Assembly (NCBI RefSeq): GCF_023065955.2 | Contig: NW_026622763.1 | Coordinates: 85,045,299 to 85,109,298 of the forward strand | DNA from: Ursus arctos | Taxonomy: Eukaryota; Chordata; Mammalia; Carnivora; Ursidae | Length of the DNA stretch: 64,000 nt | Direction of reading: 5' to 3' | Part shown: positions 63,033-63,229 of the stretch, piece after piece | How positions within the stretch are numbered: position 1 is the first letter of the stretch | Layout: each line of letters begins with the position of its first letter | The notes under the pieces: generated by a model | Databases searched by the model: none | The model's input: the letters and a program-made list of their open reading frames with translations, nothing else | What the model was told of the DNA's origin: nothing | Program-made: the position numbers and the translations under genes

Positions 63033-63229
<197 letters not shown>

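Follow-up and report, generated by a model that had tools for sequence, protein, structure and literature searches.

The receptor ERBB4 has two alternative juxtamembrane exons, JM-b and JM-a, of which JM-a encodes a cleavable peptide, and the locus raises the question of which element in the RNA directs the choice between them. The window analyzed here is a stretch of 64 kb from Ursus arctos, in which ERBB4 is encoded on the minus strand. An earlier note on this DNA had drawn attention to two UGCAUG hexamers in the intron between the two exons and had proposed them as a switch by which Rbfox proteins select JM-b.

Layout of the juxtamembrane exons

The positions of the two exons, the intron between them, and the motifs discussed below are listed in Table 1. 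The JM-b exon is translated as CIGSSIEDCIGLMD, and reading through the exon junction gives GCIGSSIEDCIGLMDR. The peptide agrees with the human JM-b peptide printed in PMC2944867, and 42 of the 45 nucleotides are identical to those of the mouse exon printed in PMC5994223. In a tblastn search of the window with the human protein as the query, JM-a was 96% identical over 25 residues; the same search located the transmembrane exon at about 34551–34414 and two kinase-side exons at 29969–29847 and 26526–26416, all on the minus strand. The intron 3' of JM-a is about 28 kb long. The intron between JM-b and JM-a is 121 nt, and in human the distance from E15b to exon 16 is likewise 121 nt (PMC2944867). 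A pattern of the JM-a exon gave 0 hits in a collection of viral contigs and in one of genome contigs, neither of which includes vertebrates. The bear JM-a peptide starts with CSGPTSHDC, with serine replacing the asparagine of the printed human CNGPTSHDC (PMC2944867). This replacement should leave glycosylation unaltered, because NGP, as found in human, does not constitute an N-glycosylation sequon.

Table 1. Positions in the window of the ERBB4 juxtamembrane exons and of the motifs around them
Feature	Position	Strand	Remarks
Alternative exon JM-b (exon 15b; 16a in other numbering)	63230..63274	-	45 nt
JM-b/JM-a intron	63109..63229	-	121 nt, GT..AG boundaries
Alternative exon JM-a (exon 16)	63034..63108	-	75 nt; cleavable juxtamembrane peptide, as expected
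5' UGCAUG	63166..63171	-	intron +59 to +64; -63 to -58 from JM-a acceptor
3' UGCAUG	63156..63161	-	intron +69 to +74; -53 to -48 from JM-a acceptor
GU stretch, two overlapping UGUGUG	63160..63167	-	motif map; between and overlapping both hexamers
Further UGCAUG	62581..62586	-	+448 to +453 downstream of JM-a donor
Further UGCAUG	62514..62519	-	+515 to +520 downstream of JM-a donor
ACUAAU (QKI-type)	63315-63320	-	-46 to -41 relative to JM-b; overlaps the -42 branch candidate of JM-b
ACUAAC (QKI-type)	62964-62969	-	+65 to +70 after JM-a
Best JM-a branch-point candidate, GAATG[A]TGT	63136	-	-28; 3/4 yTnAy positions; prediction
Second JM-a branch-point candidate	63147	-	-39; 2/4 yTnAy positions; prediction

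Two in-frame exons of 45 and 75 nt, separated by 121 nt, correspond to the mutually exclusive tandem exons of ERBB4. The lengths of both are multiples of 3, and the joined exons contain no stop codon. Double inclusion would therefore escape RNA surveillance, decay cannot enforce exclusivity, and it is at the splice sites that the choice has to fall. As to exon content, JM-d holds both exons and JM-c neither. These two have been reported as rare isoforms (PMC9471956), and their occurrence argues against strict steric exclusion by the short intron, which was also set aside because about 93 nt lie between the JM-b donor and the -28 branch candidate of JM-a.

Elsewhere in the window, the start of a carnivore tRNA-derived SINE was matched at 866, 16564, 22513, 30772, 40345, 41662, and 61831 on the plus strand. 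These seven matches had 0 to 3 mismatches, one of them being exact, and all were in one orientation, opposite to that of ERBB4. Two Alu seeds, with up to 3 mismatches allowed, gave no match in the window.

The UGCAUG pair and the GU stretch

The pair reads TGCATG-TGTG-TGCATG at intron positions 59–74, and the starts of the hexamers are 10 nt apart, exactly as the earlier note had described. The geometry stated there was also right on both counts: the pair is downstream of JM-b and upstream of JM-a. A UGCAUG within about 300 nt is a mark of Rbfox-regulated exons, and here there are two. Among the five ERBB4 exons located in the window, UGCAUG within 300 nt was found as the pair common to JM-b and JM-a and as one site before the transmembrane exon, and none was present within 300 nt of the two kinase-side exons. 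The single site before the transmembrane exon (34769–34774, minus strand) is about 220 nt upstream of it. No UGCAUG was found upstream of JM-b in the 726 nt up to the end of the window. Downstream of JM-a, there are two further copies, so that four minus-strand UGCAUGs are contained in 658 nt (62514–63171) around the JM exons.

Rbfox proteins bind UGCAUG, and their effect depends on which side of the exon they bind (PMC8742874). Judged from the positions in the sequence, both halves of this rule would point to JM-b. We lean, with modest confidence, towards reading the pair as an Rbfox element in the intron by which the juxtamembrane exon choice of ERBB4 is shifted in favour of JM-b.

The GU stretch is a possible binding site for RBM24/RBM38, CELF, or TDP-43, and the motif map of the 121-nt intron contained three UGUGUG and four GUGUG matches in all. 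These matches would favour a reading in which the stretch is itself the functional element, with CELF, TDP-43, or RBM24/RBM38 acting on UGUGUG and Rbfox having little effect. Rbm24 and Rbm38 prefer GU-rich RNA, and heart development needs Rbm24, the worm homologue of which is SUP-12 (PMC7463526); SUP-12 binds a UGUGUG stretch (PMC3469465). However, this would make a coincidence of the two complete UGCAUGs next to the stretch, and neurons use JM-b too (PMC5994223), so that a muscle factor such as RBM24 would be insufficient alone. We consider an effect of the GU stretch without a substantial part for Rbfox to be quite unlikely. The earlier note had mentioned neither this stretch nor the two UGCAUGs after JM-a, nor the FGFR2 and egl-15 precedents described below.

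Frequency of the pair and flanking motifs

On both strands of the window, TGCATG occurs 41 times versus a shuffle mean of 28.8, a count reached by 2 of 100 shuffles; the minus strand holds 25 of the 41. Two or more copies were present in 169 of the 63,880 121-nt segments of the minus strand (0.26%). The probability of two or more copies in 121 nt, obtained from 40,000 simulations per composition model, was 0.0005 when a first-order model was built from the initial 20 kb of the minus strand (44001–64000 of the window), 0.0095 when modelled on the intron minus the 16-mer, and 0.053 when modelled on the full intron. When the intron was dinucleotide-shuffled 100,000 times, two or more hexamers appeared in a fraction of 0.039. 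By the local rate the pair exceeds chance expectation, but given the TG-rich intron it does so only mildly, and its place is more notable than the statistics alone. The window contains a single copy of the exact 16-mer. Among 300 shuffled minus strands, 22 contained any two sites with starts no more than 10 nt apart, and 2 contained a cluster of four sites like that around the JM exons.

These numbers bear on a reading in which the hexamers have no role and arose by chance in a TG/CA-rich intron, the exon choice being set by HuB, TIAR, PTB, or by QKI on flanking ACUAAY. The frequencies derived from the intron itself (3.9% of the shuffles and 5.3% under the full-intron model) are compatible with a chance origin, as is the presence of GTGTG within 10 nt of 5 of the 41 TGCATG copies of the window, whereas the rarity of the pair by the local rate and that of the four-site cluster speak against it. 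Factors other than Rbfox do have a place in the literature, TIAR and HUB being listed beside FOX2 in a review (PMC10835012). On balance, we regard a chance origin with control by other factors as somewhat unlikely.

QKI recognizes the consensus ACUAAY and follows a usual position rule. Such a motif is present on both flanks of the exon pair, and QKI bound there would favour JM-a, the isoform of oligodendrocytes. ACUAAY on both sides within 300 nt was found in 694 of the 63,159 minus-strand placements of the same geometry (1.1%), a figure to be taken as a lead only, since the flanking motifs were sought after the sequence had been inspected. As a lead, QKI favouring JM-a fits oligodendrocytes but not heart, because QKI is also present in heart. 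No UAAY half-site was found within 24 nt of either ACUAAY, which argues against QKI; moreover, QKI and Rbfox could both act. In the 121-nt intron itself, the motif map showed neither STAR-type UWAA nor QKI-type ACUAAY, both of which are present in the flanks, and an intronic element of either type was set aside for this reason. SLM2 is reported to bind Erbb4 RNA in mouse brain and to alter ERBB4 in SST interneurons, the event not being stated in the passages concerned (PMC10066595).

Splice sites and RNA folding

The donor of JM-b scored 3.7 bits and that of JM-a 5.4 bits, compared to 12.6 bits for the consensus, and the pyrimidine contents before the two acceptors were similar (14/20 and 15/20). 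The predicted branch-point candidates of JM-b, at -42 and -65, both fit the consensus at 4/4 positions. By these predictions, JM-b has the weaker donor, and JM-a is without a full-consensus branch point. The 3' hexamer is 20–25 nt upstream of the -28 candidate of JM-a, a distance at which U2 snRNP would sit.

If the pair acts as an Rbfox element, nuclear Rbfox would be placed immediately 5' to the branch region of JM-a, where it would hinder recognition of the JM-a acceptor. Bound at 59–74 nt after JM-b, it would also aid the weak JM-b donor. The resulting JM-b receptor, being without the TACE-cleavable peptide, would send no intracellular fragment to the nucleus, and at low Rbfox activity JM-a would be used as the default.

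The folding prediction is less favourable. The predicted probability of being fully unpaired was 0.004 for each hexamer, which does not amount to single-strand accessibility, although such accessibility is not a strict defining feature of Rbfox-regulated exons. Part of this predicted pairing is of one hexamer with the other: both belong to an imperfect inverted repeat (63145–63180, minus strand), which could form a hairpin that has the GU stretch in its loop region. At -11.7 kcal/mol, this local hairpin was equalled in stability by 42 of 200 shuffles (z = -0.67), and the z value for folding of the whole intron was -0.97. A known structured RNA at the site was rejected, as the window gave 0 Rfam matches at the gathering score and the hairpin is unexceptional.

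Comparable switches

The pair of exons 8 and 9 of FGFR2 (IIIb/IIIc), governed by Fox2 with ESRP1/2, resembles that of ERBB4 in that both are mutually exclusive exons of a receptor tyrosine kinase with both UGCAUG (UGCAUGCAUG in the FGFR2 reporter) and a GU-rich element located in the intron that separates the exons. In FGFR2, Fox2 on the UGCAUG upstream of exon 9 lowers the recognition of that exon and leads to exon 8; mutation of the UGCAUG in a reporter halved the choice of exon 8 from 44.7% to 21.9%, and U1/U2 crosslinks on exon 9 decreased with recombinant Fox2 (PMC2880598). The GU-rich element is bound by ESRP and cooperates, Fox alone having a smaller effect than ESRP, and the study itself draws the parallel with egl-15 as to UGCAUG plus a GU stretch (PMC2880598). 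Fox weakens the downstream exon so that the upstream exon is used, and the same direction is proposed here for ERBB4. In epithelia, ESRP leads to use of the upstream exon of FGFR2, unlike in ERBB4, for which kidney has the downstream one. With the sign that it has in FGFR2, ESRP would lead to JM-b in epithelia, and for this reason it was rejected as a partner for ERBB4. The intron between the FGFR2 exons is also longer than that of ERBB4. Between the two alternative exons of ERBB4 there are both UGCAUG and a GU stretch, with UGUGUG overlapping the hexamers. ERBB4 thus appears to have the ingredients of FGFR2 in the order of FGFR2, which is a resemblance and not a proof of membership.

The Caenorhabditis elegans egl-15 5A/5B exons, under ASD-1/FOX-1 with SUP-12, likewise are mutually exclusive exons of a receptor tyrosine kinase. 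In this gene, RBFOX together with SUP-12 represses the acceptor belonging to exon 5B, the upstream exon, via UGCAUG in the intron before it (PMC3585155), and PDB entry 2mgz contains an ASD-1 chain and a SUP-12 chain. The features in common with the ERBB4 proposal are a UGCAUG in the intron before the repressed exon and, on the egl-15 side, a GU-binding muscle partner (PMC3585155, PMC2880598). The differences are that the acceptor repressed in egl-15 is that of the upstream exon (PMC3585155), whereas in ERBB4 it would be that of the downstream exon, and that the partner in ERBB4 is a candidate only.

In worm neurons, RBFOX together with UNC-75, a CELF protein, promotes use of exon 7a, the upstream exon of the unc-32 pair (PMC3585155). 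The 7a/7b exons are mutually exclusive, as in ERBB4, and the switch makes joint use of RBFOX on UGCAUG and of a reader of a UGU-rich stretch. Unlike in ERBB4, the two elements of unc-32 are in different introns, with the UGCAUG after exon 7b, and the product is not a receptor. A further parallel is exon 4 of calcitonin/CGRP, which Fox-1/2 represses via UGCAUG close to the branch point. The position near a branch point and the repression of the following exon are shared with the ERBB4 proposal; the difference is that calcitonin/CGRP has no mutually exclusive pair.

Isoform patterns across tissues

Neurons, heart, and muscle contain more Rbfox than oligodendrocytes do, and Rbfox rises with neuronal maturity. 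The earlier note had assigned JM-b to heart and JM-a to epithelia, which is borne out by mouse heart with solely JM-b and kidney with solely JM-a, cerebellum having both (PMC9471956). Mouse thalamus has mainly JM-a, and the oligodendrocyte lineage expresses JM-a with JM-b undetected (PMC5994223). In the same study, JM-b exceeded 85% in mouse hippocampus and was high in GABAergic neurons, where JM-a was low, and the contrast between grey and white matter in mouse was also present in human tissue, JM-b making up about 80% in cingulate cortex and JM-a about 70% in corpus callosum (PMC5994223). In human brain, JM-b was reported to be higher in the fetus than in the adult (data not shown there), and the del.3 transcripts of adult brain were JM-a only (PMC2944867). 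These two observations are not predicted by a simple rise of Rbfox with maturity. Rbfox3 is NeuN, according to the title of one paper.

In mouse embryos, Fox2 RNA is distributed broadly and extends to epithelia (PMC2880598), and therefore Rbfox alone cannot explain JM-a in epithelia. JM-a of the kidney type needs either low Rbfox activity or a missing partner. Overall, the published isoforms mostly fit an Rbfox that favours JM-b; these are correlations, from which binding and a splicing effect would follow only by inference. The claim of an Rbfox switch to JM-b thus stands in part: the geometry and the isoforms of heart, kidney, GABAergic neurons, and oligodendrocytes agree with it, whereas those of thalamus, cerebellum, and fetal versus adult brain do not.

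The two UGCAUGs downstream of JM-a (at 62581 and 62514) could act opposite to the pair. If these sites, +448 to +520 after JM-a, activated JM-a and outweighed the pair, the net sign of Rbfox would be reversed, in line with the review that ties FOX2 to JM-a isoform production in alveolar type II cells (PMC10835012). However, heart and GABAergic neurons use JM-b (PMC9471956, PMC5994223), and the pair is far nearer to both splice sites. In addition, the UGCAUG after the second exon of unc-32 favours the first exon (PMC3585155), so that downstream sites need not oppose. A net effect of Rbfox towards JM-a is in our view very improbable.

Discussion

The reading of the pair as an Rbfox element that favours JM-b is plausible. 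It is strengthened by the data on neurons and oligodendrocytes and by the FGFR2 precedent, and weakened by the predicted pairing and by some of the brain data.

The abstract of Wiegel, Dammann and Nielsen (2022) reportedly lists FOX2, CUG/BP2, TIAR, and HUB as candidates from in silico analysis and describes functional tests of HUB. That study, on fetal mouse alveolar type II cells, concerns the same gene and the same JM event and names FOX2. It is cited in a 2024 review, which states that FOX2, TIAR, and HUB regulate ErbB4 JM-a isoform production in alveolar type II cells and, in the passages concerned, gives FOX2 no clear sign (PMC10835012). In a search of the open literature covering titles, starts of abstracts, and some passages, neither a description of the site pair nor a CLIP, knock-out, or minigene result for these hexamers was found among the matches listed, and titles and abstract starts contained no change of the Erbb4 exon ratio on Rbfox2 loss in heart. 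Similarly, the passages available from PMC9663514, PMC6092797, PMC10312957, and PMC11380049 name no regulator of the JM splicing event. The supposition that the pair had not been described agrees with the matches listed; as FOX2 had already been linked to ErbB4 JM splicing (PMC10835012), it does not extend to the protein. Hence, the link between Rbfox and ERBB4 JM splicing is not wholly new; what may be new is the pairing of the sites, together with the composite form and the position of the element.

A more elaborate proposal, which we put forward as a speculation and hold to be unlikely in its entirety, is that the 16-mer is a composite element. Rbfox on the two sites and a GU-binding partner on the stretch between them would together shut off the JM-a acceptor, the partner being RBM24 in heart and skeletal muscle, with perhaps CELF or a higher Rbfox dose serving in interneurons. 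ERBB4 would then join egl-15 of the worm and FGFR2 of mammals as the third receptor tyrosine kinase in which an extracellular isoform is set by Rbfox and a GU-reader, and the flanking QKI-type ACUAAY could be an opposing arm that gives JM-a to oligodendrocytes. To our knowledge, it would be the first such switch to decide receptor cleavability and nuclear signalling.

At stake is a cell-type rule, by which mouse heart and GABAergic neurons have the uncleavable receptor and oligodendrocytes and kidney the cleavable one. If the pair acts as proposed, a cis element and a protein family would be named for this rule, the mechanism of which was not found in print among the matches listed, and one antisense oligonucleotide could probe the pair. 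Rbfox loss has been linked to epilepsy, autism, heart failure, and glioma. Should the proposal be true, Rbfox loss would be tied to a gain of cleavable, nuclear-signalling ErbB4.
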